A stretch of 64,000 nt of DNA from Ruminococcus flavefaciens ATCC 19208 (GTDB lineage: Bacteria > Bacillota > Clostridia > Oscillospirales > Ruminococcaceae). This document shows, piece after piece, positions 38,085 through 61,600 of this stretch. The stretch covers positions 124,001-188,000 of the forward strand of contig NZ_KI912490.1 of the NCBI RefSeq assembly GCF_000518765.1, given 5' to 3'. The first letter of the stretch is position 1; every line of letters starts with the position of its first letter. The notes under the pieces were generated by a model that searched no databases, had not been told where the DNA came from, and worked only from the letters and a program-made list of their open reading frames with translations. Both the position numbers and the translations under genes were made by a program.

Positions 38085-38100
38085 AAATAATCATCTCATT

Positions 38101-42412: not shown

Positions 42413-42433
42413 AAAAACAGGCAAAATAGCCTG
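42413..42433 (-). terminator. Terminator inside the capsule operon leader
   Basis: CAGGC/GCCTG stem around TATTTT followed by TTTTTGCTTTTT on the minus strand. It lies between the leader micro-ORF and the first capsule gene, so read-through or antitermination would decide operon expression. The stem is short (5 bp). Confidence 0.5.
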
Positions 42434-42452
42434 CATTTAATTACAATCCGGC

Positions 42453-42569: not shown

Positions 42570-42830
42570 ATAAACACCCTTTATAAAACATTGATAAAAT
42601 TTGTTTACGAACGCAAGATGCCAATTTTTCCGTTGACAGCCCCATGCCCACGGATTGGCACTCCATAAATTAGTTCATTGAAAACTGGTTGGTTTTATGG
42701 TATCCTGATTTACTAAAGCATTCAATTTCAATTTTTTCTTTGCACAGAAGAATAGGCGCTTTTTGCGCATTATTATCTGACCGAAAGTCAACTGGTTGTA
42801 ACAAATATATCATGTTTTTTAATATGTAGG

Positions 42831-42860
42831 ATTATATCATATTCTTATACATTATGTCAA
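42831..42860 (-). promoter_or_regulatory. Leftward promoter of the capsule operon
   Basis: On the minus strand TTGACA (42855-42860), an 18-bp spacer and TATAAT (42831-42836). The first large gene starts at 42186, leaving a leader of roughly 640 nt with a micro-ORF and terminator. GCGC-AAAAA-GCGC near 42750 is another leader hairpin. Confidence 0.65.
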
Positions 42861-43266
42861 TATATGGAAGTCAATATTGTTGCTATTAACAAATGAAAGC
42901 TTAAAATTTTCCGCGATTTATATATTATTTTTAAGATTTTTTATTATTTGTATTACCAGTTCCAATTATTACATTATGTAAATCATAAATTATTTTTAGC
43001 AATTAATTTTTAGACAAAATTTATATAATCACATATTATCCATGATATAAAAACTGGATTTGTTGTTCAAAACTACAAAAGAGAAATAATAGATCAGCAA
43101 CATAAAAAATCCATAGTAAAATCATAGTCAGCTGAGCAGCTACTCAGCCCAGATAATTAGAATTCACCAATAATTGCGCATCAGATTATAAATATGAAAT
43201 GACAATATGATAACCTTTATATGTAATGACTGCCGAAGAGATTCGGCTGAAGATTAGTGTTCAATT
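42861..43266. other. AT-rich gene-free stretch
   Basis: No coding sequence or promoter that I can support. Two small hairpins are visible: GCTGAG/CTCAGC near 43132-43149 and CCGAA/TTCGG near 43233-43246. Confidence 0.5.
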
Positions 43267-43379
43267 TAACAGGTGTTACTATCAGCAACATCAATAGCAC
43301 AATACACAAGTGAGTTTGATTTTATGAGTTTATATTCAGCAACATCGATATTGACATCTGCTATAACACCTGTTATAAT
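43267..43379 (+). promoter_or_regulatory. Promoter of the HTH-UGDH gene with two dyad operators
   Basis: TTGACA (43351-43356), a 17-bp spacer and TATAAT (43374-43379). The dyad TAACA-NN-TGTTA occurs at 43267-43278 and 43364-43375; the second covers the spacer up to the -10. Centres are 97 bp apart. Downstream ATGTTGC/GCAACAT forms another dyad near 43402-43422, and GCAACAT recurs nearby. The HTH domain encoded by the gene is the obvious candidate ligand. Confidence 0.75.
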
Positions 43380-43440
43380 AATATTATCATATTCAAAACA
43401 TTTATGTTGCCAATAGCAACATTTGCTATAGGAGGTAATT

Positions 43441-44934
43441 ATGAAGCACTTATCATTGAAGCTGCTTGCCGAAACTGTTATAAGCAGAAGAAAGGCAATC
43501 AAGATGTCACAAGTCGTACTGTCTGAAAAAACAGGCATAAACCGTTCGATTATTTCCAGACTGGAAAGCGAGGACTACACACCGTCTGTGGATCAGCTCC
43601 TTGCACTCAGCACTGTCCTTGGTTTTAACAATGCTGATGTTCTTGAAGATGATGTAGTTGATGCTGCTCTTGTTGAACGCAAGAAGATAGCTGTCGCAGG
43701 AACAGGTTATGTAGGACTTTCCCTCGCAGTTCTGCTTTCTCAGCACAACGATGTTACCGCAGTTGACATTGTGCCGGAGAAGGTCGAGAAACTGAATAAC
43801 TGGCAGTCTCCGATTCAGGATGACTTCATCGAGCAGTACCTTGCAGAGCATGAAAAGCGCCAGCTTTCCCTCAAAGCTACAACAGACGGCGAATCCGCCT
43901 ACAAGGGCGCTGATTTCATCATCGTTGCTGCACCTACGAACTATGATCCCAAGACCAACTTCTTTGACTGCTCCGCTGTTGAAGCAGTTCTTTCCCTCAT
44001 AAAGAATGTAACCGTTAAAAAGAAGAATAAGCCTACGATTGTCATCAAGTCCACTATCCCTGTTGGATACACAGCTCAGGTTCGTGAGAAGATGGGCATG
44101 GACAATATCATTTTCAGCCCTGAGTTTCTTCGTGAATCCAAGGCTCTCTACGACAATCTCTATCCGAGCCGTATCATCGTTGGTTCTGATGAAGCCAACA
44201 TGAAGGCTGCCGAGGAGTTCGCTGCACTTTTACAGCAAGGTGCTATCAAGCCCAATATTGATACCCTCTTCATGGCAACTACAGAGGCAGAAGCAGTTAA
44301 GCTGTTCGCCAATACATATCTTGCACTTCGTGTCAGCTACTTCAATGAGCTGGATACCTATGCAGAGGTCAAGGGACTTAAAACTGCAAACATCATCAGA
44401 GGTATCTGTCTTGATCCCCGTATCGGCGACTATTATAACAACCCGTCCTTCGGCTACGGCGGCTACTGCCTGCCAAAGGATACAAAGCAGCTGCTTGCCA
44501 ACTATCAGAATGTTCCTCAGAACATGATGTCTGCTATTGTTGAGTCCAATAGAACCAGAAAGGACTTCATCGCTGACCGTATCATGGAGATCGCAGGTAC
44601 TTACGGCAACAGTGCTGATTACTCTGCAGAGCAGGAAAGCAAGCAGAAGGAAGTTGTTGTGGGCGTGTACAGACTCACAATGAAATCAAATTCCGACAAC
44701 TTCCGTCAGTCCTCTATTCAGGGCGTCATGAAGCGTATCAAAGCAAAGGGCGCTACAGTTATTATCTATGAGCCGACACTTGAAAACGGCAGCACCTTCT
44801 TCGGTTCACTCGTTGTGAATGATCTGAAGAAGTTCAAGAAGAAGTGCGGCTGCATCGTTGCTAACCGCTACGATTCTGTTCTCGATGATGTTGAAGAAAA
44901 GGTATATACAAGAGATCTGTTCAGAAGGGATTAA
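43441..44934 (+). CDS. ugd: UDP-glucose 6-dehydrogenase with an N-terminal XRE HTH domain
   Basis: 497 residues. Residues 8-72 are an XRE helix-turn-helix: [55 protein letters not shown]. The dehydrogenase starts at about 82 with GTGYVG at 87-92, then [16 protein letters not shown] and the catalytic Cys343 in [11 protein letters not shown]. The enzyme oxidises UDP-glucose to UDP-glucuronate with two NAD. Usual UGDHs are about 390-450 residues with no HTH. The fusion is clean and in frame, after AGGAGG. It is followed by the epimerase gene; both point away from the capsule operon. Confidence 0.93.
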
Positions 44935-44937
44935 GAT

Positions 44938-46005
44938 ATGAGCAAAGAAAGAATTGACTTGAGCGGCAAGACGATACTTGTGACCGGTTCTCCCGGATTT
45001 ATCGGTGCAAACCTTGTGCTGAGACTGCTGAAAGAAATGTCCTCCGGCACAGTTGTGAGCCTTGATAACATGAACGATTACTATGATCCGGCACTGAAGG
45101 AATATCGTCTTTCGCTGATTGAAAAAGCAGCAGAGGTCTCCTCTGTCAGACACATATTCGTTCAAGGCTCAATTGGCGATAAGGCACTGATAGAGAAGCT
45201 GTTTGCTGAATATCACTTTGACGTTGTGGTCAACTTAGCTGCACAGGCAGGTGTTCGCTACTCTATCGACCACCCTGATGTGTACATTGAGTCAAACATC
45301 ATAGGCTTTTACAATATCCTTGAATGCTGTCGCCGTCACCCTGTAAAGCATTTAATCTACGCAAGTAGTTCTTCTGTTTACGGTGGCAATAAGAAAGTGC
45401 CGTTCAGTGTAGACGATAAGGTCGACAATCCTGTATCGCTCTATGCAGCAACAAAGAAGTCGGACGAGCTTATTGCTCATGCTTATTCAAAGCTCTACAA
45501 CATACCGTCTACTGGTCTGCGTTTCTTCACAGTATACGGTCCGGCGGGCAGACCCGATATGTTCTATTATTCCGCTACTAACACATTAGCCAAAGACGGA
45601 ACTATCAAGATCTTCAACTATGGTAACTGCAAACGTGATTTCACCTATATTGATGATATTGTTGAAGGAGTTTATCGTGTAATGCAAGGAGCTCCGGAGA
45701 AGCAGAACGGCAAGGACGGTCTTCCCCTTCCGCCTTATGCAGTGTATAACATCGGCGGCGGTACTCCCGAGAACCTGCTTGACTACATAAGCACATTGCA
45801 GGAGGAGCTTGTGAACGCAGGTGTTCTTCCATCCGACTACGACTTCGAAGAACACAGAGAGCTTGTGGGAATGCAGCCAGGAGATGTTCCTGTGACTTAT
45901 GCTGACAGCAAAGCTCTGGAAGATGACTACGGTTTCCGTCCTATGATCGGTATCCGTGAAGGACTGAAAAAATTCGCTCAGTGGTATGCTGAGTATTATA
46001 AATAA
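44938..46005 (+). CDS. UDP-glucuronate 4-epimerase
   Basis: 355 residues. ILVTGSPGFIGANLVLRLL, LDNMNDYYDPALKEYRL, NLAAQAGVRYSIDHPDVYIESNIIGFYNILE, ASSSSVYGGNKKVPF and YAATKKSDE (Y-x3-K) match the GAE/LpsL family that interconverts UDP-GlcA and UDP-GalA. It lies 3 nt after the dehydrogenase, so the pair supplies uronic acids for the polysaccharide. It is the last gene before attR. Confidence 0.92.
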   Translation: MSKERIDLSGKTILVTGSPGFIGANLVLRLLKEMSSGTVVSLDNMNDYYDPALKEYRLSLIEKAAEVSSVRHIFVQGSIGDKALIEKLFAEYHFDVVVNLAAQAGVRYSIDHPDVYIESNIIGFYNILECCRRHPVKHLIYASSSSVYGGNKKVPFSVDDKVDNPVSLYAATKKSDELIAHAYSKLYNIPSTGLRFFTVYGPAGRPDMFYYSATNTLAKDGTIKIFNYGNCKRDFTYIDDIVEGVYRVMQGAPEKQNGKDGLPLPPYAVYNIGGGTPENLLDYISTLQEELVNAGVLPSDYDFEEHRELVGMQPGDVPVTYADSKALEDDYGFRPMIGIREGLKKFAQWYAEYYK

Positions 46006-46812: not shown

Positions 46813-47496
46813 TCAATAGTATCTGTGTGTTACGTTGATTGTCTTTGCAACTATATAACTACCTGCTTTTTTCAGTTTGATCGTATAGTTCAGGTTAGTC
46901 TTTCCGTTATTTGCTTTGGCTGGATATACCTTTAAGTAATCATACTTTTGTAATCCGTTAGTGCTGTTATTGCCAAGAGTTGATCCTGAACGAACTAATG
47001 CACCTGATAATGTCTTTACAATAAGATTTGATGGATACTCAATTGTGTATGCACATGTGGAATAAACAGTAAAGTTTGCATATGAAGTTGCAGCCTTTGA
47101 AAGGTAAAGATATGTTGAATTTGTACCAATATACGGCTGATACTGTTTAACGTATAAGGAATGAACAATGTTTCCCTTACTGTTCTTGAAGTAAATATAA
47201 CCTGTTCTGAATGTGTTGTATGTTTTTACAGTAGTATCAGGCTTTACAGTAACTTTGTAATAGCCGTTTACTACCTTGGAAACAGTGATCCATGAATAAT
47301 AACCACTGTAACTTGTTGCATCATACTGTGATACATAATATGTTCCGCCTTCGCATGAGCATGTATATGTACTTGAAGAGTATGCTTTTGCTTTTAATGC
47401 TCTGTCAGGCATTACTGTGAATATTCCGACCATTACGATAAGTGCAAAAAAGATGCTTAATATAGTCTTGTTTGTTTTAGTAAGAATGTTTTTCAT
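46813..47496 (-). CDS. Secreted protein with BACON-like beta domain
   Basis: 227 residues from MKNILTKTNKTILSIFFALIVMVGIFTVMPDRALKAKA, a signal peptide with AGGAGGAG upstream. SGYYSWITVSKVVNGYYKVTVKPDTTVKTYNTFRTGYIYFKNSKGNIVHSLYVKQYQP is a BACON-type Ig-like sandwich (the W-I-x-V...R-x-G-x-I...V-x-Q pattern). A second beta domain follows. It is exported, role unknown; BACON domains often help mucin or glycan binding. It is a single-gene unit. Confidence 0.75.
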   Translation of the reverse strand: MKNILTKTNKTILSIFFALIVMVGIFTVMPDRALKAKAYSSSTYTCSCEGGTYYVSQYDATSYSGYYSWITVSKVVNGYYKVTVKPDTTVKTYNTFRTGYIYFKNSKGNIVHSLYVKQYQPYIGTNSTYLYLSKAATSYANFTVYSTCAYTIEYPSNLIVKTLSGALVRSGSTLGNNSTNGLQKYDYLKVYPAKANNGKTNLNYTIKLKKAGSYIVAKTINVTHRYY

Positions 47497-47628
47497 TTTC
47501 TCCTCCTGAAATATTGAGTTAAGCGGAAAACTCATATAAATTATAACATTTTATGGTATATTTGTCAACCTAATTTGACGATTATTTTTATATTACGCGT
47601 CTAATCATATAACAATTGCAGCTAAAAA

Positions 47629-47659
47629 ACGGACACTATCACACAAGGATAATGTCCGT
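47629..47659. terminator. Bidirectional terminator ending the seven-gene operon
   Basis: ACGGACACTATC pairs with GATAATGTCCGT (12 bp, one mismatch). TATTTTTT follows on the plus strand and TTTTTTAGC on the minus strand. It lies 10 nt past the last stop of the leftward operon. Confidence 0.85.
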
Positions 47660-47669
47660 TATTTTTTAC

Positions 47670-47897
47670 TTAACCGAGAGACTTGAGCTTCTTTTGCAGC
47701 TCTATCATATGATTACGACAAGCTGTTATCTCTCCTGTATACTTATTGAACCACTCTACATCTGTTTCGTCAGGCTGCTCCTGAAGCAGGATAGCCTGTA
47801 CAAGTGCCGACTGAGAACGCGAACGCTTTCTTTCGATCTCCTTGATCGTACTCATGCAGAGCTTTATCTCTTTTTTTAGCTTTCTTTTCTCGCCCAT
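47670..47897 (-). CDS. Small coiled-coil protein, last gene of the McrB/SipW operon
   Basis: 75 residues from MGEKRKLKKEIKLCMSTIKEIERKRSRSQSALV, with GGGAGG seven nt upstream. Two helices (about 4-40 and 52-74, CRNHMIELQKKLKSLG) suggest a helical hairpin. No membrane segment. It could bind the long coiled coil of the fusion protein two genes upstream. Family not recognised. Confidence 0.6.
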   Translation of the reverse strand: MGEKRKLKKEIKLCMSTIKEIERKRSRSQSALVQAILLQEQPDETDVEWFNKYTGEITACRNHMIELQKKLKSLG

Positions 47898-47914
47898 GCT
47901 GAAACCTCCCTGCA

Positions 47915-48349
47915 TCAATAGCCTTTCTTGTCTATGGAGTTTACTACTGCCTCTGCTTCTTCATATCCCTTGTCCATATCGTCAACGATATCACTGAGAG
48001 CCTGTCTCATATCGTCAAGTGTCTCTTTCATCTGTTCGGGATACTTCATAGTGCAGGTCGTAAGCTCGTTTATGATTATCTGTTTGTCATCAAAGCCCTC
48101 AATGAGAAAAGCAAAGGAATTTGCACCACTCATATCGCTTACTATACGCATATATCTCAGCTCGTGATCCCCCTCGCCATTCTTGTAAGAGTCTATATCC
48201 TCAATGACCTTTGTGAGATTTACTTTATACTGCTTGCGGTAAGTCTCCTGAACGCGCTTTGTCTCATCAATATACAAAGCTATGAACACGAGAAGAGCTA
48301 TAAAAGTGATAATGAAAAGTATGATCGCTCTAATCATTCTCCTCTTCAT
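47915..48349 (-). CDS. Small membrane protein of the McrB/SipW operon
   Basis: 144 residues from MKRRMIRAIILFIITFIALLVFIALYI, a single N-terminal anchor. The start is uncertain because a GTG 18 nt earlier and a later ATG are possible. The rest is a soluble acidic helical domain (DETKRVQETYRKQYKVNLTKVIEDID...MKETLDDMRQALSDIVDDMDKGYEEA). It overlaps the end of the 983-residue gene by 20 nt, so they are coupled. A periplasm-side accessory subunit is likely from topology, but the role is unknown. Confidence 0.65.
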   Translation of the reverse strand: MKRRMIRAIILFIITFIALLVFIALYIDETKRVQETYRKQYKVNLTKVIEDIDSYKNGEGDHELRYMRIVSDMSGANSFAFLIEGFDDKQIIINELTTCTMKYPEQMKETLDDMRQALSDIVDDMDKGYEEAEAVVNSIDKKGY

Positions 48350-51281
48350 CAGTTTCTCTTGGTTCACTCAGCTTCACCTCGTTTTCGGGATCATATCCGG
48401 TCTCTTCGAGACGGCGTTTTTCTCTTTCAATAGCTTCTCTTATGGCAGCCTGACGCTTTCTGTCGGCTTCCTCTCTGTTGTTTTCGGCAGCCTCTCTTCC
48501 CAATTTCATCAATGACCGAACTTCATAAAGTGCTATCCATGTCATAGGGATAACGACCAGAATAAGCAGAAGCTTTTTCAGATTCACAAAGGAATTCACC
48601 CATATGAAAAATCTTGACTTACGGGTATATTTTCCGACTATACGCTCCTGTCTTGCGGGGACTCTGTCCTCTGTTGGATTTGCGTCGCCTTTTGTGATAT
48701 AGCTGCCGTCGGTATTTTTACCGATTATTCTGTGAGTTACAAGCTTATCCCTTACATCGTCCTGATCGGAATAGAAGGTGATTATATCTCCCTCCTCAAG
48801 AGCGTCGGTATCCGTCTTTTCAACGATGATATAATCTCCCACGCGGATAGAGGGTTCCATGCTTCCGGTAACGACCTTCAGCACACTTTTACCGAATACA
48901 TTCACAGCTTTTCCGTGAGCCGAGCATATCATTACGTATATAACGAAAACAAGGGCTATAGCAGTAATGACCGTAACTATGATATTTGCGATCTTTGAGG
49001 AATTATCCTCGGTCTTGGCTTCAGTGATCTCCGAAGCATCAATGCTTGCTTCGCTCTCGCGGATAGCTTTTTCCAGCTCTGCCTTCTCATTTTTGCGATA
49101 TGCAAGTGACCTGCGGACTTTCTCGACAAGACTTACGCGGTACTCCTTGTAGAGACGCTTCATTTCCATGTCGATAGCCTTCTGCTCCTCGGGAGTCCTT
49201 ACAGGCGGAGTATATGCAGGACGAGGCTTGTTCTTCATTTCGCGAGCTTTTTTCCGCTTGAACTTCACATCAGCGATAAAGCGTCTGAAACGGTACTTGA
49301 AATCCTGACCGTACTTTTTGTAGTACACTTCCATCTGCTGACGTTCCTGCTTTTCCTGCTCCTTTTGCTGTTTCTTCTGCTCCTTTTCCGCAAGGAGCTG
49401 TTTATAGCGCGGATTATCGGTATCCTCGGGTATGATTCCGAATACCACAGCCAGTATATGCCTTATGAGGCGTATGATAACATATATGGGATTCCACGAA
49501 TATTCGCGGTATATCTCCCTGAAAGGCTTGCTTTCAAAGTGCTGTCTTTCAGCCTTGAGACGCTGTGCACGCTCTGCCTCGGCTCGTTCCTTTTCAAGCC
49601 TCTGCTGTTCAAGTTTCTTACGGGCTGCAACGGCTCTCGGGTCTTCAAATTCACCCTGCTCCTCAGACTCGACCATTTCAGCCTTGACCTCTTCGACCTC
49701 ATCTTCGGTGACTTCGTTGTACGCCTGTTTTTCAAGCTCGGCTTCATCGGGAGCATTATTGAGAGCCTCTTCATCAAGTCCCTCAGCCTCTCCCAGCTCG
49801 GCACGTGCCATTTCCTTATTCTGCCTGATGCGCTCACGCTCGGCAGCAATACGTTCTTCTTCCTCTCGTTTGAGACGCGCTTCTTCTTCCCTTTTACGCA
49901 TCTCTTCCAGACGGGCAAGTCTTTCCTCTTCAAGCCGCTGACGTTCCCGTTCCTCGGCTTCCTGCTCGGCACGTTTCTTTGCCAGCATTTCCTGAAGCTT
50001 TCGTTCCTCTTCTTCCTTTTCGAGGCGGATACGCTCCAGCTCTGCGCGTCTTGCTTCCTCGATGCGCTGCTGTTCTCTGAGCCGTTCTTCTTCCTCCTGA
50101 CGGCGTTTCTCCTCTTCCTGCCTGAGCTTTTCAAGCTCTGCCATATACGCAGTCTCGATGTTGATACATTCCGTTATCTGCTCAAACATGAGATTAAGGT
50201 CGGGAGGCAGCCTCTTCTCCATTCGGAATTCGGCATCTGAGGCGATATATCCTGCAACAGTCTCTGACGAAACACTGTAATCCGCAGCCAGCTCCTTATC
50301 GAATTTCTTCAAAAATTTCGGAGCTATAGGCTTTGAGGTCTGTGTTCTCAGCTCCTTTAGCTTTGCCTCGTTGTCGTTGTTCATGTACGAACGGAACAAC
50401 AGCAGGTTAAGCACTATGAGCTTGTAGAAATCATCAACGTATTCCTTCTGAGGTGCTACAGCCTTATTCTGTATGTTTATCTCATAGCCGACCTTGTCAT
50501 AGCTCTCTATGTACTGCCAAAGTGTAAGGCAGGCTTTCAGGTCGACATTTTTCATAATGGCGTTTGTACGCATTACAGGCGGTCTTATGAAGCTGTTTCC
50601 GAGAGTCCTGCAAAGCTCCGAGCCTTTATAGCCCTCGATAGCTGTTTTAAGCTTTTCAACTCTCTGCCATACGGTATAGCCGTTGGCATCATAAGAATCA
50701 AGACTGTCAACCGTCTCTATCTTTACGTCTATCTTCATTCTACTGCCTTTGGCATCATCAATGACTGTATCATATCCGAGTGTGAAAACCTCTTCGTCCT
50801 TTGATACCTCGGCAAGCTTTTCGTATCTTCTTGATATGAAGATGTAAAGCCTGTCCACAAGGGTATTGATGAACCTGTTCTCATATGTCATAAGGCTTTC
50901 TTCCTTATGCACATTGAGTATCTTTGAGGGAGTTATCTTTCCCGTTTTTCTGTCAACGCTCTGTATCAGGTCTGTATGCTGTGCAAGATGCTTGACAGAT
51001 TCTATGGTCGTCTTACGCGACAGTGCTATGGGTACTATCTCCTCAACGTCCTCTATGGTACGCCGGGGATTTCTGAGAAAATTGTCAAGATGAACAAGAC
51101 CATTTTCAATAGCCTCTACCCACGAAACATCTATCGCCTTTTCCATTATCTTCTTGTTGAAGGCAAAATTGTTACGGCTCGCTTCGAGGAGAGAACCAAG
51201 TGTACCATATAACTCATCGCTGCCGAACAGTTCCATGATCTCTTCAAACTCATGGTACCAGTTGCTGTATAAGCCGTTCAC
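48330..51281 (-). CDS. DUF2357 - coiled coil - SipW-type signal peptidase fusion protein
   Basis: 983 residues from a GTG with AGGTGAGAG upstream. Residues about 85-300 read as DUF2357, the N-terminal part of McrC-like partners (YENRFINTLVDRLYIFISRRYEKL; RPPVMRTNAIMKNVDLKACLTLWQYI). Residues 382-500 and 550-580 are a dense Glu/Arg coiled coil. A membrane segment lies at 763-788. An S26B/SipW-type peptidase follows at 800-890, with Ser807 in TGSMEPSI, His850 in THRII and KGDANPTED. A second membrane segment is at 903-921, then a charged tail. No PD-(D/E)xK nuclease motif is seen. It stands directly after the McrB-type ATPase gene (23 nt), the usual place of McrC. Confidence 0.82.
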   Translation of the reverse strand: MNGLYSNWYHEFEEIMELFGSDELYGTLGSLLEASRNNFAFNKKIMEKAIDVSWVEAIENGLVHLDNFLRNPRRTIEDVEEIVPIALSRKTTIESVKHLAQHTDLIQSVDRKTGKITPSKILNVHKEESLMTYENRFINTLVDRLYIFISRRYEKLAEVSKDEEVFTLGYDTVIDDAKGSRMKIDVKIETVDSLDSYDANGYTVWQRVEKLKTAIEGYKGSELCRTLGNSFIRPPVMRTNAIMKNVDLKACLTLWQYIESYDKVGYEINIQNKAVAPQKEYVDDFYKLIVLNLLLFRSYMNNDNEAKLKELRTQTSKPIAPKFLKKFDKELAADYSVSSETVAGYIASDAEFRMEKRLPPDLNLMFEQITECINIETAYMAELEKLRQEEEKRRQEEEERLREQQRIEEARRAELERIRLEKEEEERKLQEMLAKKRAEQEAEERERQRLEEERLARLEEMRKREEEARLKREEEERIAAERERIRQNKEMARAELGEAEGLDEEALNNAPDEAELEKQAYNEVTEDEVEEVKAEMVESEEQGEFEDPRAVAARKKLEQQRLEKERAEAERAQRLKAERQHFESKPFREIYREYSWNPIYVIIRLIRHILAVVFGIIPEDTDNPRYKQLLAEKEQKKQQKEQEKQERQQMEVYYKKYGQDFKYRFRRFIADVKFKRKKAREMKNKPRPAYTPPVRTPEEQKAIDMEMKRLYKEYRVSLVEKVRRSLAYRKNEKAELEKAIRESEASIDASEITEAKTEDNSSKIANIIVTVITAIALVFVIYVMICSAHGKAVNVFGKSVLKVVTGSMEPSIRVGDYIIVEKTDTDALEEGDIITFYSDQDDVRDKLVTHRIIGKNTDGSYITKGDANPTEDRVPARQERIVGKYTRKSRFFIWVNSFVNLKKLLLILVVIPMTWIALYEVRSLMKLGREAAENNREEADRKRQAAIREAIEREKRRLEETGYDPENEVKLSEPRETDEEEND

Positions 51282-51304
51282 TTGCTCTCACCTGCTCTTC
51301 CGTA

Positions 51305-52873
51305 TCAGAACAGCTTCTGTAGTCTTTCGAGATAAGCTATAGATTCGTTCATTTTATTTTTACCGAAGGTTTTTGTCATATATACGCATAATTCGCGCAG
51401 TTCCTCTCTCAGCATCGCAAGGTTGAGAGATTCAAATTTTCTGAATATCTTTGTAGCAAGAATGTAGTCTATGCCGTCAAGCTCGTCACCGCCGCAGGCA
51501 ACATACACAGGAACAAAAAGGTTCATCTGCTTGAGGATACGGTTACCGAAAGCAACTCTCAGCTTTTCGATTACCCAGAGGTCAAGCTGCTGTATCTTCT
51601 TGAGGTTTTCCTGTGATATGGGATACTTGTCAAAGGCTTCCCTGAACAGCTTGTCAAGATGATCAAAGCCCAGATTCATAGGCGGCGTATCGGGTGCGTC
51701 AAATGCAACGCCCTTCGAGTCAAGATTTATAGGCTGAGCACGGTCGTAAACCTTATCCGATATAGCGAATGTAGAGTCATCGTTATTCGCTGTACCTATG
51801 TACCAGATATTCTGAGGGATACGTATCTTGCCCTTGTCAAGATTTACAGGGTCGGTGCTCCATACATTTGGTACGATATCCAGCTCCCACTCGTCAGCGT
51901 TAGGCATTTCGAGGATTGAGAGCATCTCTGCGAAGTAATACTCGACACGGGCGATGTTCATCTCATCGAGAAGGATAAGGTTTACATCGTTGTTATAGCC
52001 CGATGAATATATTCTCTTGAGGACTTCCGTTTCGTTGAAGTTCTTGGTGAATTCGTTGAAGTAACCGAAAAGCTCCGTTCTGTCACGCCATGAAGGCTGT
52101 ACGGAAGCGATAGTGGTATCCACCTGTAAGAACTTACCGAAGGAGTACGGAAGTGATGTTTTACCTGTACCTGATATACCCTGAAGGATAATAAGCTTCG
52201 TAGAAGCCATACCCGCAAGGAAGAGCCATATTACCTTTGGCTCATAATAAAGATGCATTCTCGAGCAGGCGAAATTGCGGAAATTGTCGCATATGCCTGC
52301 AAGGTCTATATCATTGTCATACTCAGGCGGAGTATATTCCTTGTAAAAAGCATCGACTTCGATGAGCTTTGAAAATCTCTGCTCTGTAGTCTGTACAACA
52401 CCGCTCTCAACAACAGCAGGTGCAGCCTCGCCGCCCTCACCACCGGCAGCCATGCTTCCGTCCGCAAGAGAAAGAGCCGATGAGCCCGCGGGAAGTCCCA
52501 TCTGTGAGACCTTCATAGCCATTATCTCGTCCTTCTCCTTGGTCATTTTCAGTACCTTTCGCTGAAGCTCTGATATCTCTTCAAGCAGATCCTCATTGCT
52601 TACTATGGAATGACGGAACCTTACATACTTTCTTATGCCGAGTATTATCATAAGTATCAGCAGTACATATACAGCTATGACTATGATTATGGCGATTATG
52701 GAAAGCACCCAGCTCAGCGCACCGTAATTTGTGGAATGCTGCTTGAATATTTCGATATAGTTCTTTATATTGAAGATCTGTTTTATTCCATGACCTATGC
52801 CGCGGACTATTTCCGAATAGCCTTTCAGCATTTCCGAAATAAATTCAAAAAACCATTTTAGAAATTCATTCAT
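51305..52873 (-). CDS. Membrane-anchored McrB-type AAA+ ATPase/GTPase
   Basis: 522 residues. An amphipathic start, one membrane segment at about 52-80 (ALSWVLSIIAIIIVIAVYVLLILMIILGI), a short coiled coil at 92-118, and a Gly/Ala-rich linker. The AAA+ core follows: Walker A GISGTGKT at 232-239, Walker B LILLDEMN at 299-306, and IGTANNDDSTFAISDKVYDRA, the McrB-type sensor region in which NNDD stands for the N-x-x-D signature. McrB normally forms a GTP-driven ring around McrC. Here the membrane anchor replaces the DNA-binding domain. AGGAG precedes the ATG. Confidence 0.88.
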   Translation of the reverse strand: MNEFLKWFFEFISEMLKGYSEIVRGIGHGIKQIFNIKNYIEIFKQHSTNYGALSWVLSIIAIIIVIAVYVLLILMIILGIRKYVRFRHSIVSNEDLLEEISELQRKVLKMTKEKDEIMAMKVSQMGLPAGSSALSLADGSMAAGGEGGEAAPAVVESGVVQTTEQRFSKLIEVDAFYKEYTPPEYDNDIDLAGICDNFRNFACSRMHLYYEPKVIWLFLAGMASTKLIILQGISGTGKTSLPYSFGKFLQVDTTIASVQPSWRDRTELFGYFNEFTKNFNETEVLKRIYSSGYNNDVNLILLDEMNIARVEYYFAEMLSILEMPNADEWELDIVPNVWSTDPVNLDKGKIRIPQNIWYIGTANNDDSTFAISDKVYDRAQPINLDSKGVAFDAPDTPPMNLGFDHLDKLFREAFDKYPISQENLKKIQQLDLWVIEKLRVAFGNRILKQMNLFVPVYVACGGDELDGIDYILATKIFRKFESLNLAMLREELRELCVYMTKTFGKNKMNESIAYLERLQKLF

Positions 52874-52916
52874 AATAAACTCCTGAAGATCTATGCTTCC
52901 GCATATCTCATGTCAA

Positions 52917-53780
52917 TTATTCGGCGGAGTCTCCTGCGATCTCTTCTGCCGCCTTTTCAACAGCCTCCTCAGCCTTTTCGACTGTATCATCAACAGCTTC
53001 TTCTGCTTTCTCTGCTGCTTCTTCGACCTTTTCAGCTGCTGCTTCGGCAGTGGTTTCAGCCTTTTCCTTCACAGCCTCCTCAGCCTTTTCGACTGTATCA
53101 TCAACAGCTTCGACAGCCTTTTCTGCTGTATCCTTAACAGCCTCGGCAGCTTTTTCAGCAGTTTCGCCCTTGCTTGCAAGATACTCCTCTATTGCGCGTC
53201 TTTTGATCTCCTCTTCATCTATTTCGGGAGCATCTGAACGCTTTGTCTCAATAAGTGCGACAATGAACTTATAAAGCTCAAACAGGAAGAATATTGCCAT
53301 AGGTATGAGTATGCATATGAAAAATCCTTTTTTGGTACGAAGGAAATTCATTGCCTTGCCTACCTTTGCTATCTTTGTCTCTGTCCACTTTCCTATGATA
53401 TCACTTGAGTATGCAGGCAGTGTATCGTCTATAGGGTTGTTGTCGCCTCGTGTAATGAAGCTCCTTACACCGTCAGTATCATTGATACCAACGATCCTAT
53501 GGGTATTCTTTACTCTTTTACCGTCTATGATAGTCCAGAAGGTGATAACATCGCCTGCTTTCAGGGCATTTATGTCGTCTATATCCTTACAGATAATAAG
53601 ATCACCCTTATTGAATGTAGGTACCATTGAGTCAGATTCTACAGTCATCGGCATATATCCAAATAAATTTGCCACACCGTTGTTTTTATCGGAAGAAAAT
53701 ACTATCAGCGTTACAAGAAATGCCAATATAAGTATTAACCATGCAAAAACATTTACTGCTATTCTCAGCGCCTTTTTCAT
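52917..53780 (-). CDS. sipW: SipW-type signal peptidase I with a repetitive Ala/Glu tail
   Basis: 287 residues. First membrane segment at about 8-28, catalytic Ser51 in DSMVP, His94 in THRIVG and RGDNNPIDD near 111-119. These give the Ser-His type S26B peptidase (SipW and archaeal-like), distinct from Ser-Lys SipS. A second membrane segment lies at 153-178. Residues 205-285 are amphipathic repeats such as AVDDTVEKAEEAV, similar to LEA-type or apolipoprotein repeats. SipW enzymes release TasA-like fibre proteins. The gene precedes the McrB-like gene and follows the TasA-like gene. Confidence 0.9.
   Translation of the reverse strand: MKKALRIAVNVFAWLILILAFLVTLIVFSSDKNNGVANLFGYMPMTVESDSMVPTFNKGDLIICKDIDDINALKAGDVITFWTIIDGKRVKNTHRIVGINDTDGVRSFITRGDNNPIDDTLPAYSSDIIGKWTETKIAKVGKAMNFLRTKKGFFICILIPMAIFFLFELYKFIVALIETKRSDAPEIDEEEIKRRAIEEYLASKGETAEKAAEAVKDTAEKAVEAVDDTVEKAEEAVKEKAETTAEAAAEKVEEAAEKAEEAVDDTVEKAEEAVEKAAEEIAGDSAE
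52960..53111 (-). repeat. Two exact 41-bp direct repeats in the SipW tail
   Basis: The block at 52960-53000 recurs exactly at 53071-53111. It encodes the AVDDTVEKAEEAV unit. Perfect DNA identity points to recent duplication and possible length variation between strains. Confidence 0.85.
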
Positions 53781-53805
53781 ATTAAAAAATCTCCTTTTGG
53801 ATTGA

Positions 53806-54519
53806 TTATGTAGACTCTGTTATCTTGAAGTTCATACTAAGCTTTAATGTACCACCTATTATATTATCAAGACAGTCGGGATCGTTTCCCTCGAGCCATA
53901 TGACCACAGTATATTTGTCCTTATTATCAGCCTCAAAGCCTTCGGTAGAGGTGCGCATTACCAGTGACGAAGAAAGAAACTCACTGTCACAGTCGCTTTC
54001 TTTTCCGCCGCCGTTTGATTTTGTCTTACCGTATACAGTCTTTTCACCGTTTTTGTAAACTGCGACACGGATAGCTTCGTCGACATTTTTCGTCACATTC
54101 TCTATTGACATCTCACCTGTATAAGAGAGTGTGTCATCACCCGAATTTATGAGATAAAACGTATAAGCTATATAATTTGTACCATTATGGCTTCCGTTTA
54201 TCTTGTCAATATTATCGGGAATGTCATTTCCGCTTATATTCGTCATATCGTAAACGATATTAGCATTAAGCACTGCTGTCGCCTTGTCATATTCAGGTGT
54301 CTCTGACAGGGTAAGTCCCTGATGTACCATATCATACTTGCTTACCTTTACCGTAAAGCTGCCGAATTTATCATAAAAATACGATATTGCATATGCTACG
54401 GCAATTATCAGTATAAGGATTATTACAAGCAGAGCAAGTATCCTCATCAGGATCACATGGCGTTTTACCTCTTTGGCGGTTCTTCTGAGTTCAAGGACAT
54501 CAATTATCTTATCATCCAC
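53806..54519 (-). CDS. TasA/camelysin-like membrane-anchored beta protein
   Basis: 237 residues from a GTG with GGAGAG upstream. An N-terminal cytoplasmic stretch precedes a hydrophobic segment at about 25-48 (ILALLVIILILIIAVAYAISYFYD). A beta-sandwich follows: TNYIAYTFYLINSGDDTLSYTGEMSIENV...YTVVIWLEGNDPDCLDNIIGGTLKLSMNFKI. The closing W-L-E-G-x-D-P-x-C...GG-x-L-x-x-S-M-x-F pattern is typical of SipW-dependent fibre-like proteins. It is the obvious substrate of the adjacent peptidase, though the long N-terminal tail before the anchor is unusual for a cleaved signal. Confidence 0.75.
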   Translation of the reverse strand: MDDKIIDVLELRRTAKEVKRHVILMRILALLVIILILIIAVAYAISYFYDKFGSFTVKVSKYDMVHQGLTLSETPEYDKATAVLNANIVYDMTNISGNDIPDNIDKINGSHNGTNYIAYTFYLINSGDDTLSYTGEMSIENVTKNVDEAIRVAVYKNGEKTVYGKTKSNGGGKESDCDSEFLSSSLVMRTSTEGFEADNKDKYTVVIWLEGNDPDCLDNIIGGTLKLSMNFKITEST

Positions 54520-54586
54520 AGCGAACTCTCCATTTCCTGAAATTCAATATCATTTCCTGAGAAATTATCGGTATAAATACCTTTTT

Positions 54587-55345
54587 TCAATCATCTGTTC
54601 TCCTTTTGACATATCTTTCTGTCACATATTTTCCCGACAGGCTGCCTGCACAGTATGAGCATTCAAACGAGTACAGCATTTCAGCCTGACGGCTATTGAA
54701 AACTCCGTCAGCAACAGGTTCTGAACCTATGTCGTTAACGAATGATATTATAGACTTCACCGCATTGTCCGATCTTTCGCCCCTGCCTATATAATTTGCG
54801 ACCTCGGGACTGAGCATAACGTAATCAACAGAGAACTTTGACAGTCTCATCATAGGGCAGTAGCTTCCGCCAAAGCCCGTCAGCATAAAATGAAAGCCAA
54901 AATTTCTCATAGCCTGTATCGACTCAGACGCTTTTCCGTCGTCCTCAGCAAGAAGATTCTCAGAAAGCTCAAAGCATATACGGTTAGTCGGTATATCCCT
55001 TTTATGACATATCTCAACAACAGCCTTTGCAGCATGCTCGCTTTTCAGATAACGCACAGGCATATATACCGATATCCAGCCATAATTCAGTTCGCGTTCG
55101 TTAAAACTTCTGCACGCTTCCAGTGCCTGGAGCATTTCCAGCTGAAAGAGCTTTTCAGCCTGACTTGTCATTTCGCATACATCACGATACTTATCGGGTG
55201 AAAGAACTCCCAGCTTAGGAGAATTGAGCCGCGTCTGAGACTGATAAAAAGCCGTACTTCCACTTGATATCTCCCTTACAGGACGATAATAAAGCTCTAC
55301 AGCCCTAAGACCGTCAACGGTGGTCTGTATTCCCTTTTCCGCCAT
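54587..55345 (-). CDS. Degenerate EAL-domain protein, first gene of the operon
   Basis: 252 residues. The fold pattern of EAL phosphodiesterases is there, but catalytic blocks are lost. E-A-L-x-R appears as QSQTR, the D-D-F-G-x-G Asp pair as LTGFGGS, the K-I-D lysine as YVMLS, and E-G-V-E as ADGVF. FELSENLLAED still shows the E-x-x-E-like block. So it cannot cleave c-di-GMP by the known mechanism, and may instead sense it or bind protein. No membrane segment. A consensus promoter directly precedes it, which places it as the control gene of the operon. Confidence 0.8.
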   Translation of the reverse strand: MAEKGIQTTVDGLRAVELYYRPVREISSGSTAFYQSQTRLNSPKLGVLSPDKYRDVCEMTSQAEKLFQLEMLQALEACRSFNERELNYGWISVYMPVRYLKSEHAAKAVVEICHKRDIPTNRICFELSENLLAEDDGKASESIQAMRNFGFHFMLTGFGGSYCPMMRLSKFSVDYVMLSPEVANYIGRGERSDNAVKSIISFVNDIGSEPVADGVFNSRQAEMLYSFECSYCAGSLSGKYVTERYVKRRTDD

Positions 55346-55390
55346 TTCTCCACCCTCTTTCTGAAGATATATAATTTTTATATTTGTTTT

Positions 55391-55419
55391 ATTATACCAT
55401 AATTACTGCGCAATGTCAA
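55391..55419 (-). promoter_or_regulatory. Consensus promoter of the EAL-TasA-SipW-McrB operon
   Basis: On the minus strand TTGACA (55414-55419), a 17-bp spacer and TATAAT (55391-55396), 46 nt before the EAL start codon. The remaining 200 bases up to the next terminator hold nothing else that I can support. Confidence 0.9.
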
Positions 55420-55695: not shown

Positions 55696-58600
55696 TTACT
55701 TGATAAAGCTTGTGATCACTTTTGCATTCGTGTAAATGAGCCAGTCACTTACGCCGCTGTTAGGGTATTTATTAACATCTGTATTTTCAGCAGCTTTATA
55801 TAGCTCCGTTGTAAGATCTACCCTGTAATTTGCATAATCTGTAAAACTGTTGTCTTCACTGCCCGTTATCGCATCAAATTCAATATTGACAGTATAAATA
55901 CCATCTTCCTTTTCACAAAGACTTGAAGGCATATCAACAGTTACTGTTTTTCTGTCTGATGCAATGGTAACACCCGATATCGTCTGTGATGTGAATGTTC
56001 CCACGCTCGGACTGAGAGGTATTGTTTTCGTACAGGTTCCTGATTTGAATACGATATCTCCCGAAAGTTTTTCATCAAGGTTTACAGGTTGATATTCAAC
56101 ACCTGTTATCACGCCCGCAGCCTTAATATCTGTCTTTTTGCTAAGCGAGAATGTCAGTCTGATATGATCTGCGTTTGCGTATCCGCTGAGAGATGTAGGA
56201 TTGTACTTTGCAGCTGTGATTATCTTCATCCCCTCAGGACGACTTGAACGCAGTGCATTTATACCCAGTCTCGAGTGATTCTGACTCATCTCATCATCAC
56301 CGTCATAGTCGAAAATGTCAAGATCGTTTGTAACAGAATAATACAAGTGAGCAGTATCCACCGATTCTCTGTAATAGTAATGACTGCTGCGCGGATATGA
56401 AGATGTCATACTTGAGAAAGCAAGACTGTCACTGTCATTGACATATGACAGATTTGACGAAGCACCTACATTTACACCGATTTGCGAATTGCTCGTTCCT
56501 ATCGGGAACTCATCATCAAGTGCCGCTGTATCAAAGTCCATCTCCACCTTTGCATTAATAACCAACGGTACAGGCGGATCCTGGCTTTGATTTGTCCTGA
56601 GAGCAGACATTATAGAACTACCTGAAGTACGGATATTAAGATAGTCATTCTCAATATCTATTCCTGCCGCATCAATACTTGCAGCTACACCTTCTCCGAA
56701 GCTGTACTTTGCTGTAATGCTTGCATTATCATGTTCATCATCTATATCATGAAGTCCGACAATATTGTTTGAAACAGCTCCGTTACTTTCATAACGCGTA
56801 AGCGAAAGTTTAAATGAATGATATAAATCAGCACTGCTGAGATGCATGATAATTCCGGGGTTATTAATGGATATTCTGGTAGTTGCTTCAACTGTGATCT
56901 TCTTGTTTGATTCACTCATCTGTTCATCAGATGATGTCTTTAATGCAGCGGTTGTGTCCTGAGTATAAAGATCCGCAATAAACATGATATATCCTTCAGC
57001 GTTTGCTCTTGCACAGCTGACCTTCGCCGAGCTTGCTCCTGCTTTATTTGCAGGCTTATCAAACGTACCTACATTTTTTATGGTGTAGTAGTATAGTTCG
57101 TTATTATAATCATTGTTATGCGGAACATACATACTAAGATAGTAATCTTCATACAGATCTGTTCCTTCAGGTAAAACCAAATTACAGCCGCCGTTTCCGT
57201 TTCCTACATATCTGTAGTAAGTCTTTGTGAGCGTTATATTTCCCGAAGCATCTTTAGCTTCAGTGATCCTGTATGCATCATAATTGCTTGATGTAGCATC
57301 TATTGTTGTATAGCGGCCTCCCACAGTATCCACTGCCTCTATTTTAGCTGCAAGAATGTCTGCAAGATCTTTTACTTCAAAATTATTGGTTCCGTCGGTA
57401 AACTTGTTAAGAGCGATCTTCCAGCCTGCTTTTCCGTTTGACATATAGGTATTTGTAACAGTCCCATTAGTGTTGGGGTCTGTTTCAGTTTCAAATACAC
57501 TCATATCATCAACATAATACATATCATCAGAATCACCGTTAGGATCAACAAGCACCATATATGTATTAGCAGGTAGTCTTAAATCAACATCATCTGAAAA
57601 GGTATCAAATGTAAATGTTTTTTCGTGATTCCATTTTACATTACCGCTTTCCAGCAATCCATTGATATCTTCTCTTTTGTAGGTGAAACGAATATACTGT
57701 GTTATCCATGTGTTCAGGCTGTCAAAATGGATAGTATTGCTCGTATCTCTGAATAAAGCCTCATACTGAGAATCTGTTGTATTCTTATAATTGTTATCCT
57801 TTACAGAATTTGCACCTGATATGGCTACAGCATTGAATTCAACTTCTATCTGTCTTATAGTGTAGACAGGAACATAGAGATGATATGCAATATAATTTGT
57901 ATTAAACGGATCCTTGAACTGTACATCAACAAGAGAGAATGTATAGCTGTCGGTATTCTTTGAGTCTGCATGAGAACCATTCAAAGCAAATGTTCCCTTT
58001 GCAGTCTGTCCGTTTTCCTCTGATGTAACAGGAGGAGTCCATGTAAGTCCCGAAGTGCCGCCTGTTTCTTCAGAAAAAGCACCTGCATTATATTTGTACG
58101 GTGTTACGACAATATTATAATATGGACTGTAATCCGTATAGTCTGTAGATGTATTCGTAACAAGCTGGATATAACGATTGATAAGATTGGTAGTTTCGTC
58201 AGTATTATTGTTTGCGATAACAACTACTGCGAAATTATCCAGATTTGCCGCATCCTGCGGAAGTCCGCGCTCTGTCTGATAATTTGAGATACGGTCTCCG
58301 TCATAATCGGTACCGCGCATCAGATAATCTTCTATATTATTAGAGTTGTATATCGTTGTATCACTGAATGTCGTATACATTCCCGAAGCAGTGCCTGTCT
58401 TTATGTCGGCATATATCTTTGCCGCCATAGTCATGGAAGAAGGATAATGCGCACTGTTTCCGCCATCGGGTGAGAAATACTTTGTCGCTCCGTTTTCAGT
58501 ATAGCTTGCATTTTCGCTGTTCAGCACAGCTCCGTCTCCCGAAATTATCTGTCCTGTACCCATTCCCGACTGTGGATTGATATTTACATAAGGATATGCA

Positions 58601-61600
58601 GGCATTGAGCTAACATTACCCGTATTATTATAGTTTGATACATCATCGGGATAGGTCGGTACACCGTTTACAGTTGTTCCCTGACTTTTTTCCGTATAGT
58701 CGGCAAAGACGAACGAAGCATCAGAGAATGAAGCAATATTACCAACGTTTTGAGTAAAGTTTCCGCCGTAAACCGCCATACCTGCGAACTGGATAATGGT
58801 TTTATTTGCATCAGTGGTACTTGTATCCTCAGCAAAACCAATCCATGCGCCCTTTTTATTAGTGCCTGTACTCGGGCTTGTAACATTATCGAGCTTGATA
58901 TTGTAACCAAGTATCTTGTTATCAGGTTTCTTTGCTATGCCGCCGATAACACCGCCCGCATAATCCACATTGCCTGATTGTCCTATAACACAGTCTTCAA
59001 CTGAGCTGTCATGGATATAACAGGTAATGCTTTCCTGCTGCGAATTGCAATAGCCAACAAATCCTCCTGCATACTTATTAACTTTGGCATTAATAGCGTA
59101 GTTTTCGACTTTACAGCCATTTATAATAATATTTGCATCATTTCCGTTTCTGGTACGTACATAACCTTCACCTACCAGACCGCCTGCTGAATCGCCGCCG
59201 TTTATGCTGCTGCTGTTTGCAGCTACACCAATAACATGGCAATTATTAAACTCCATACGGTACGGCACCCACGCTGTATGTTTATCATTGTCCCATTTTC
59301 CGCCGTATATTCCACCTGCAAAATTGCCTTTTATGGAAATATTTTCAACAGTACAGTTTTGAAGCATCGCATAACCCGTGTTACTATCCTGTGCTGCCGG
59401 CTGCATAACTCCGACAATACCGCCGCAAATTCCGGTTTTATCATTGCCGAGAGTAGTTCCTGCGGAATTTTTAGCTTCTACTTTCATATCGTAAGCATCA
59501 AAGCCGTGACCTGAATAGCCGACTAATCCGCCCACAGATACACAGAAATTATCTGTATCGTTTCCGAAAGAGAAGGTATTGATCTTTACGGTCGATATCT
59601 TTGTTGTATCTGTATTTGTGGTCGATCGTCCGCGAACAACTACCTTTCCCTCCTTGACCTTTCCGACAAAAGCACCCATTGCATTTCTTGGGTTGGCGTT
59701 AGACTGTGAAGCTGCCATTTTGACAGAGATATTATCTGCACTGCATTCTGTAATAGTAACATTGACTGAATCTGATTGATTTCCAGAATGAGCAAGAAGT
59801 CCGCCAACATAATTCGAGCCGTTCAAGGTTATATCTTTTAGAATGATCTTTTCAAAATTAACTGCCTGCGTTCCTCTGCTCCAGCCGCAAACTCCTCCCG
59901 TACTATGCCAGATTATCGCACCGCTTGTAGGCGCACTTAAGAACTCACTTCCATTTTCATAGATAGCAGTCTTGACCGAGCCTGTCAGAGTAAAATTATA
60001 GAATTTTCCGCCGCTCTTCATTATAACGCTGTCAAACAGACCGATGCCGTGCTCGGCGGTCGTAGTATCAATGGCATATGCTGTACCGCCGTTCACTGCC
60101 TGACTTGCGCCGCTATGAAGCATGTTAAAGTAGTTGTCAGTTTTGAACTTATTAAGGTAGATATCTGCATTGATAGTTTTACCGTTTCCGTCAAATTCGT
60201 TAAGTTTTATGCTGTACGGATTTGTAACGCCTGTTACCGTATCATAGATACCTACACAGCCCAGACCGCGGTAGCTGTCAGGAAGGACATACTCATCGCT
60301 GCCTGTCAGATTGATATCGTAATAGCCTTCTGTTTTTACTACGCAGCGTGCACCGTAATTATCAACAACTCCGGTCGTTGTATATGTTGTTACAGATGTT
60401 TCCGTATATGTTGTTACGTATGTCGACACAGATGTTACTGTATTTGTTACTATTGATGTCACTGTTTGTCCTGATGGTGTTTCATTTCTTTCAAATAATG
60501 CAAGTGGAGTACCCACATCTATTGTCTTCCAAGCGCAGAAATTATCTTTAGTATTAGCACAGTTAATATATCTATTACTACTATCACTGATACCCCAACC
60601 AGTTATACCATCTTTGCTTACCGGTCCAACATTTAAATAAATAGGTGTCTCACTATCAACAAAACCAAGATTACCACGTGCCATACCTGTATCTATATTT
60701 GGATTCTGGGCATCTTTGTAAATATTCGTAATTGTTAAGTACTTCCTTTTTTCTGCATTGTTACTGTCTTTATAGGTATAATAGATACAGTAGGTGGAAG
60801 CAGTAGGATGTTTTTCAAAACATACTTCTATCGCATTCTTTATCTTTGTTTCACCTAAAGTTAAACCATCCTCAGCTGTAGTATACTTTTTTGTAGTACG
60901 AAGAACATAATTACGTTTGTTAGTATTATCCCAACGTTCGTTGGTCAGATAATCTACATTATCTCTCTGTTCACCTATTATAAAATATGAGCCGCTTGGA
61001 ATTGTTGCGCCAGTGAATTTTGTAACAGAATAACTATATACTTCCGATGTCACAACTGAAGTCGCTGTTGAATATATGATAGTTGTAACAGTTGAAGATT
61101 TAACTTCCGTCACAACCGATGTAAAAACAGCAGATTGAATTTTAGGTTCACATTCGGTATAGTACTTGATGATATAAGGTATTGCAGTATTTGCTGCTGT
61201 ATCCTTGCTCGCATATGAGCTGAAATCATCACTTGATGCTTCGCCTGTACCTACATCACCATAACTTGCAATATGGCTCATACCGTAAACCGTACTGCTA
61301 TATGTACCATAGGACAGTGAATTATTATAAGCTCCAAGCTCTGCCGATGCAGCCGTTCCTGCACATGACTGCGTAATAAGCGACAGAATAAACATTGCCT
61401 GTGCATTAGGAACATTGATATTGCCGTCTGTTCCGCTTGCTGCTACAGCCGTAACATCGAGCTTATTCGTATCGTTCTTGTTGATATCCGCAACAGAATA
61501 ATGCTTTTTGCCGTTTTTCAGCGTATGCTGAGTGAGTGCCGAACCGTCAGAAGCAGTTCTTGCACTGCCTGCATCATCATGGTATGTGCCGTCTTCTGTC

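Follow-up and report, generated by a model that had tools for sequence, protein, structure and literature searches.

Motors of the McrBC type are regarded as machines for nucleic-acid restriction. The question raised by the locus described here is what such a motor is doing in one operon with two SipW-type signal peptidases and a pilin-like protein. The locus lies in a stretch of 64,000 nucleotides (the window; contig NZ_KI912490.1, positions 124,001 to 188,000) that is part of the 3.59-Mb genome of Ruminococcus flavefaciens ATCC 19208. From comparison of its genes with their relatives, we think it reasonably probable, though well short of certain, that the operon encodes a CoCoPALM-type, McrBC-like machine without a recognisable nuclease, which would have a membrane-based part in the production of surface filaments that depend on SipW. 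All seven genes of the operon are on the minus strand; its parts, in window numbering and in the direction of transcription, are:

55391 to 55419, minus strand: promoter TTGACA-17-TATAAT with an extended -10 TG, matching the consensus at 12 of 12 positions (scan)
54587 to 55345, minus strand: degenerate EAL-domain protein, 252 residues (PF00563, E 1.6e-34)
53806 to 54519, minus strand: TasL, a membrane-anchored or secreted pilin-like protein, 237 residues, with an N-terminal transmembrane segment at 27-45
52917 to 53780, minus strand: SipA, a SipW-type (S26B, endoplasmic reticulum (ER) type) signal peptidase, 287 residues (TIGR02228, 98 bits, cut-off 51.85)
51305 to 52873, minus strand: membrane-anchored NxD-type McrB-like AAA+ NTPase, 522 residues, with a transmembrane segment at 59-77, a short coiled coil and the AAA+ domain
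48330 to 51281, minus strand: DUF2357 (McrC-type activator) plus S26B peptidase (SipB), 983 residues (PF09823, E 3.8e-8, residues 67-165; TIGR02228, 99 bits, residues 763-922)
47915 to 48367, minus strand: small protein 1, 150 residues, transmembrane segment at 15-33; overlaps the preceding gene
47670 to 47918, minus strand: small helical protein 2, its position conserved in relatives
47628 to 47660, minus strand: intrinsic terminator, a 13-pair stem and a T run

Are these seven genes a unit? In the list of open reading frames they are co-directional, running from 55345 down to 47670 between promoter and terminator, and the initial annotation, made from the sequence of the window alone, was right to describe them as framed by a consensus promoter; its terminator, described there as bidirectional, appears in the scan for the minus strand alone. 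A search for the locus elsewhere returned 168 relatives, of which the best 80 were kept as named loci (L numbers), and gene order was counted in the 58 of these whose sequence extends 3.0 kb or more upstream of the ATPase start and 5.6 kb or more beyond it downstream. The whole order, including the position of small protein 1, is kept in 57 of the 58, the exception being a contig that stops after SipB, and none of the 22 loci too short for the count has a different order. Genes that drift apart in related genomes were to have counted against a functional link, and they stay neighbours; a chance neighbourhood is ruled out by the same count. The order extends to other families of the same taxonomic order, where surface genes are inserted between the operon genes and ATPase identity is 44-63%. 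The promoter is conserved as well: of 73 scannable relatives, 55 have perfect hexamers at a spacing of 16-18 ahead of the EAL gene, as against 0 of 73 single composition shuffles.

The ATPase has the Walker A sequence GISGTGKT, the Walker B sequence DEMN and the signature NNDD, which recurs in all 80 genome-contig loci and, by alignment, in 21 of 23 order-level matches, the other two not reaching over the motif. Since Walker A, Walker B and the sensor motif are conserved in every relative that covers them, hydrolysis of nucleoside triphosphates (NTPs) is implied. The protein is 97% identical to its counterparts in R. flavefaciens Y1 and YAD2003, has no Pfam family over cut-off, and in profile searches resembles McrB families weakly. 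Its N-terminus consists of the transmembrane segment and the coiled coil, with no DNA-recognition domain among Pfam or NCBIfam matches, in keeping with the earlier description of a membrane anchor instead of a DNA-binding domain. The coiled coil is indicated by a simple heptad count, in which hydrophobic residues occupy 0.58 of a/d positions across residues 85-125 as against 0.37 overall. No septum-formation family appeared among Pfam matches at E up to 1, a search that included no profile comparison aimed at FtsB. In PADLOC the ATPase matches PDC-M26A, a phage-defence candidate model, at E 8e-39, and automatic defence annotation may mislabel such loci.

A set of shorter NxD ATPases, 421-467 residues long (some cut by contig ends), occurs without a signal peptidase gene in L122, L123, L124 and L127. 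In L122-L124 the DUF2357 gene is flanked by an ATPase on either side, and the neighbours include a transglutaminase-core protein (L123) and a DUF4855/F5-8C/Big surface protein (L122). It is possible that these loci represent a second link between McrBC-type proteins and the cell surface.

If the ATPase is a motor, its likely activator is the protein encoded next to it, and here the question is whether the pair retains a nuclease. In the 983-residue protein DUF2357 is followed by an E/R/K-rich charged helix, a hydrophobic segment at 599-617, a transmembrane segment at 767-785, the S26B domain and a further transmembrane segment at 893-911. Residues ~371-490, which are 65-80% E/K/R/Q, may form one charged helix instead of a coiled coil, and the topology as we read it would have 599-617 associated with the membrane, not spanning it, and the S26 domain outside. 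PF09823 is recognised in 61 of 61 N-terminal regions of relatives of this protein and in 6 of 9 more distant partners. A nuclease in the 983-residue protein had been named beforehand as a finding that would refute the initial reading; no PDDEXK_7 match was obtained in it by Pfam profile search at E up to 1, in any of the 61 N-terminal regions by sequence profiles at the same threshold, or in the 9 distant partners at E up to 0.1. The controls were 19 loci, each from a different genome among the 41 others of the phylum that gave a generic match, nearly all of them best-ranked. Their ATPases are NxD too (19/19), and PDDEXK_7 follows DUF2357 in all 10 McrC-type partners scanned, in nine of them over cut-off. 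The DUF2357 core of the operon group aligns with these nuclease-bearing partners of NxD McrB over 78 columns (hhalign, 92.5%, E 4.8e-7), and a profile search of solved structures gave no match for the DUF2357 region. The absence of a nuclease is an absence at the level of profiles, and a nuclease fold beyond Pfam's reach remains conceivable.

The attachment of the peptidase to DUF2357 proves to be variable. Among 95 DUF2357 genes of L028-L127 the two domains are fused in 36 and unfused in 51, with 8 running off the contig, which leaves 87 decidable; in the unfused set SipB follows within 140 nt in 42 cases, stands 0.7-2.4 kb away in five, and is not found within 5 kb in four. In an 83-row tree of the ATPase the fused or separate state needs 6 changes, at least 5 of these by well-supported branches, which suggests that DUF2357 and S26 have been fused or split several times, at least five, bearing in mind that frame errors in draft genomes could produce some false splits. 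In the initial annotation a signal peptidase occupied the place where the nuclease would be. The missing half of that statement stands, as no nuclease is detectable; the replacing half is overstated, as S26 is a separate gene in 51 of the 87 decidable loci and has been joined and parted repeatedly, and the idea that a peptidase replaced the nuclease is weakened accordingly by those unfused loci.

Both peptidases themselves appear sound. A Ser-His pair defines the ER type of signal peptidase, SipW included (PMC10269814), and in relatives of SipA the catalytic Ser is present in 94 of 95 and the His in 93 of 95, the remainder being gaps, while Ser-His-Asp-Asp is intact in 81 of 87 SipB domains. 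Against NF046067, the Bacillus SipW family, SipA scores 101 bits, below that family's cut-off of 190. That the S26 assignment might be a mis-call had been raised at the outset; it is ruled out by TIGR02228 exceeding its cut-off twice in the operon and by the conserved catalytic residues. The active-site Asp positions of SipB are altered in L114, L115 and L116, which read SHIN, SHSD and SHAD.

What, then, would two SipW-type peptidases cut? The operon's own secreted product, TasL, is well conserved (mean column identity 78% over 68 sequences) and has no family over cut-off in Pfam or NCBIfam. It had been described as TasA-like and as the likely substrate; profiles give the first label no support, and for the second there are better candidates. 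Against the M73/TasA profile hhalign gives 13%, in the transmembrane region only, and a profile search of solved structures returned one chance match (E 0.17). Its signal region fits Y[AG]x[SA]YF in 68 of 68 sequences (x being I in 56, V in 9 and F in 3), which puts S or A, not an aromatic residue, at the predicted P2'. TasL is homologous to pilin family A, a family with the site YAWF (hhalign 115 columns, 95.2%, E 2.7e-8), and because it is a homologue of that family lacking the W-F site, with no detectable M73 relation, we suggest that it may be a conserved partner or the base of a filament rather than its main subunit. The existence of the second peptidase was correctly called; the better substrate candidates lie outside the window.

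These candidates belong to a block of surface genes that begins just upstream of the operon:

55696 to 63999, minus strand: C-terminal part of a giant secreted-type, adhesin-like repeat protein of 3826 residues, the gene continuing past the window edge to ~67176

The giant protein is a separate transcription unit, with its own terminator at 55674-55635, and carries seven GG[LYFVI][IVALF]G motifs in 2767 residues where shuffles lead one to expect 0.22. Beyond the window edge, on the same strand and upstream of the giant gene (L144), stand secreted-type proteins of 389, 262, 348 and 401 residues, of which the 262-residue protein has the site FAWF, the 348-residue protein GWF and the 401-residue protein YAWF, the 389-residue protein being of TYAVY type. 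No Pfam or NCBIfam domain is found over cut-off in the pilin-like proteins or the giant protein. A giant protein (in some cases cut by the stretch), with or without pilin-like genes, lies within ~20 kb of the operon in 10 of 14 genus stretches; L174 has one YAWF protein, and in other families of the order proteins of this kind stand within the operon itself.

The predicted cleavage sites of the linked pilin-like families are much alike. In pilin family A the A, W and F are invariant (13/13), family B has W and F in 8 of 8, and in family C the W is invariant (8/8), the next residue being F in 7 sequences and L in 1. The comparison with known SipW substrates is instructive: TasA has Phe at P2' and is processed by SipW, and sites with Phe at P2' are poorly cleaved by the E. 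coli signal peptidase, other nearby residues contributing too (PMC10269814). Both fixed residues of the A.F site are invariant in 19 M73 proteins taken from the phylum, and the signal part of family A matches the M73 signal part over 31 columns (87.8%); families B and C give only short matches to the M73/TasA profile, in the transmembrane or signal region or over 30 columns. The linked pilin-like proteins beyond the window edge are thus likelier SipW substrates than TasL, with a predicted site of the form.A|WF. A signal pattern of this type, in which a hydrophobic core runs into residues like xAW[FLMI], is found in 29 of 178 open reading frames across 14 of 15 operon-bearing order loci, in 17 of 183 across 8 of 14 genus stretches and in 1 of 45 in three downstream genus stretches. 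It is found in none of 220 in the 19 control loci, none of 42 in four loci with the ATPase and no Sip gene, and none of 48 in the window itself.

The genes are also inherited together. We sampled 125 genomes of the genus, 68 of them of good quality, with counts that are not corrected for relatedness. The ATPase is present in 32 of the 125 and TasL in 31, all within those 32; in the one discordant genome, G641, the ATPase is cut by a contig end. Pilin family C occurs in 20 of the 32 ATPase-positive genomes as against 1 of 93 ATPase-negative ones (Fisher p 6e-14), and in the good genomes in 17 of 20 as against 1 of 48 (p 4e-12), both values likewise uncorrected for relatedness. Family C lies on a different contig from the ATPase in G546, G547, G558, G626 and G640. 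SipW-type peptidases exceed the cut-off in 61 of the 125 genomes, including all 32 with the ATPase. Outside the genus the ATPase turns up in 18 of the 146 remaining genomes sampled from the order, and a phylum sample of 398 genomes gave no match better than E 3e-27 except in the window's own genome. Profiles of the other operon genes find no match in the 19 control NxD loci. Pairs of SipW-type genes about 2 kb apart occur in the genus without the ATPase, for example in G594:C16, G578:C13 and G582:C7, so the genus has other SipW systems.

How might such a machine work? Starting from the NTPase motifs, the membrane anchor, the activator domain, the intact peptidases, the fusion and the linked pilin-like genes, we infer that a ring assembles, that DUF2357 activates it, that hydrolysis is coupled to cleavage or polymerisation, and that the EAL protein senses a signal. 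The ATPase would form a membrane-anchored McrB-like ring, on which DUF2357 would dock to stimulate NTP hydrolysis, in the manner of McrC acting on McrB. SipB would be brought into this complex by the charged helix and the membrane segments, its active site facing outwards. The cycle of the ring would then drive or gate signal-peptide removal at the predicted.A|WF. site, and pilin-like subunits would be released from TasL or polymerised onto it; the dead EAL protein would probably serve as an adaptor that reports c-di-GMP (cyclic diguanylate) or protein signals. It is tempting to go further and to see in the McrB/McrC pair the membrane motor of a new class of Gram-positive surface filament, in which a DUF2357 stalk switches on a ring coupled to SipW-type peptidases and NTP hydrolysis times both signal-peptide removal and a donor-strand type of polymerisation, but this fuller version we hold tentatively, with the balance lying slightly against it.

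Several observations weigh against a filament-building role. TasA fibres of B. subtilis, which assemble by donor-strand exchange, have been described without an ATPase (PMC9674648), and a dedicated motor would for that reason be surprising. There are 29 genomes with a SipW-type peptidase and no ATPase, from which it follows that SipW processing does not generally need one, and the shorter ATPase/DUF2357 relatives of L122-L124 do without any Sip gene. The partnership with the candidate subunits is imperfect: family C was not found in 12 of the 32 ATPase-positive genomes (nine outside the good set and three inside it) and occurs without the ATPase in one genome, G605, and TasL has an aromatic P2' residue in 0 of 68 sequences. 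The surface block, near the operon in 10 of the 14 genus stretches, is on the other strand in several and was not seen in L166-L168. Finally, the signal pattern was drawn up after the first loci had been seen, which means that only its contrast with the controls counts, and it flags only two of the four L144 upstream proteins of the window's own genome.

The alternative that survives best keeps the ring and the peptidases and reverses their purpose. Extraction from membranes is a common use of AAA+ rings, and in a pathway of regulated shedding or quality control the ring would pull misfolded or stalled SipW-type precursors from the membrane for the peptidases to cut, clearing fibres rather than building them. 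The presence of two peptidases per operon and the fusion of one of them to the partner of the ring (36 of 87 decidable loci) would suit such a role. We nevertheless regard it as unlikely, since Pfam and NCBIfam recognise no cytosolic protease or degradation domain in the operon, the peptidases are of the signal-peptidase type, and a conserved pilin-like protein co-inherited in 31 of 32 genomes better fits a building block.

Another possibility is suggested by the first gene of the operon, whose EAL domain, judged by its motifs, is catalytically dead: in an alignment with four EAL domains that keep their motifs, encoded near the operon or related loci, it has QSQ for EAL, TGFG for DDFG, M for K and DGVF for EGVE. 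All four catalytic motifs being replaced, the initial annotation's description of a dead domain is upheld. Genes of c-di-GMP type stand beside the locus in five stretches (L108:3614-5890, L109:12640-14946, L144:8841-10517, L166:2564-3790 and L118:16391-17857), two encoding GGDEF-EAL proteins, two intact-motif EAL proteins and one an HD protein with a weak EAL match. The degenerate EAL domain and these neighbours are what one might expect if the ATPase/DUF2357 pair, instead of driving export or assembly, were a regulator or sensor relaying a c-di-GMP signal to surface genes, and SipW of B. subtilis has been reported to influence matrix gene expression (PMC13082335). The invariable conservation of Walker A, Walker B and the sensor motif, with the hydrolysis that this implies, and a fusion that is to a peptidase and not to a DNA-binding domain, make this reading quite improbable in our judgement.

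Anti-phage defence, in which infection would trigger peptidase-driven envelope damage or a change of surface through an NxD McrB system, can draw on the PADLOC candidate match, on the standing of McrBC and CoCoNuT relatives as restriction systems (PMC11090510) and on patchy presence (32 of 125 genomes), but it is very improbable given a nuclease that is undetectable in the 983-residue protein and 61 N-terminal regions, a conserved perfect promoter and gene order, the company of TasL in 31 of 32 ATPase genomes and of family C in 20, and operon-gene profiles that find nothing in the 19 control loci. Defence had been put forward beside a motor reused for surface proteins; only those supporting signs were found, and it is rejected as the main explanation on account of the missing nuclease and the tie to surface genes. 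The reused motor keeps its core, namely the anchor, the lack of a detectable nuclease and genes that stay together, and loses its details of replacement and substrate.

The surroundings of the operon add some further observations. Many relatives of small protein 2 have 74-78 residues, which suggests a later start near 47897, and the protein is present in L109, L113 and L126, from other families of the order. An exopolysaccharide cluster adjoins the operon at 29560-46005, with genes for a flippase-like protein, a pyruvyl transferase, EpsG, glycosyltransferases, a sugar transferase, a UDP-sugar dehydrogenase with an N-terminal helix-turn-helix and an epimerase. Between the two, at 46813-47568, is a secreted-type protein of 240 residues with a weak BACON-domain match (below cut-off) and its own perfect 12/12 promoter at 47568-47540.

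Should the filament-building reading be true, SipW-dependent fibres would have an NTP-driven machine, the first as far as we are aware, and a restriction motor would have been turned to proteins. Part of a large McrB census would need re-reading if the operon builds or gates surface filaments; a filament pathway would be added to the Oscillospirales, an order with important fibre degraders of gut and rumen; and CoCoPALM, named but unexplained, would acquire a testable function, candidate substrates and a predicted cleavage site.

It remains to set the operon beside known systems. With canonical McrBC type IV restriction it shares a McrB-like AAA+ protein adjoining a DUF2357 protein; it differs in having NxD rather than NxxD, a transmembrane segment for the DNA-binding domain and no PD-(D/E)xK domain that we found, and in being tied to signal peptidases and surface proteins. 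CoCoNuTs resemble it in belonging to the NxD clade, in their coiled coils and in their frequent loss of the McrC nuclease. Those CoCoNuTs whose McrC nuclease is missing or inactive always adjoin HEPN or other predicted nucleases (PMC11090510), and among the seven proteins of the operon Pfam and NCBIfam recognise no nuclease family. From the Bacillus tapA-sipW-tasA and calY loci come the parallels of a Ser-His SipW peptidase with dedicated secreted fibre-type proteins and of Phe at the predicted P2' of pilin-like proteins; unlike them, the operon adds an AAA+ ATPase, a DUF2357 protein and a second peptidase, its TasL is non-M73 by profile, and giant adhesin-like proteins are linked to it. A search of openly licensed literature found no paper linking signal peptidase, McrB, AAA and TasA, and for CoCoPALM, as for McrB in connection with signal peptidases and pilus assembly, only one paper and its preprint (PMC11090510 and PMC10542128) that were relevant by title or the start of the abstract.

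That paper supplies the closest relative, and with it the claim that no system of this make-up had been described falls: CoCoPALM was named in one paragraph, without functional analysis, by Bell et al. (2024, eLife; PMC11090510). The features given there are an NxD McrB GTPase (the signature usually followed by D or E) with an N-terminal transmembrane and coiled-coil region homologous to FtsB, a DUF2357 partner that carries a long helix, charged or (usually, though not always) coiled, and signal-peptidase family proteins proposed as pilus assembly factors. By the NxD signature, the transmembrane segment with its coiled coil, the DUF2357 domain and the signal peptidases, all of which we find, the operon would be of CoCoPALM type. 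Substrates, gene order, a SipW assignment, fusion of DUF2357 to S26, an EAL partner and co-inheritance do not appear in the CoCoPALM text. Relative to that text, the locus described here adds the SipW type of its two peptidases, a repeated fusion of DUF2357 to S26, a partner with a dead EAL domain, a promoter that is conserved, TasL, candidate substrates for which a cleavage site is predicted, and the co-inheritance seen across the genus.

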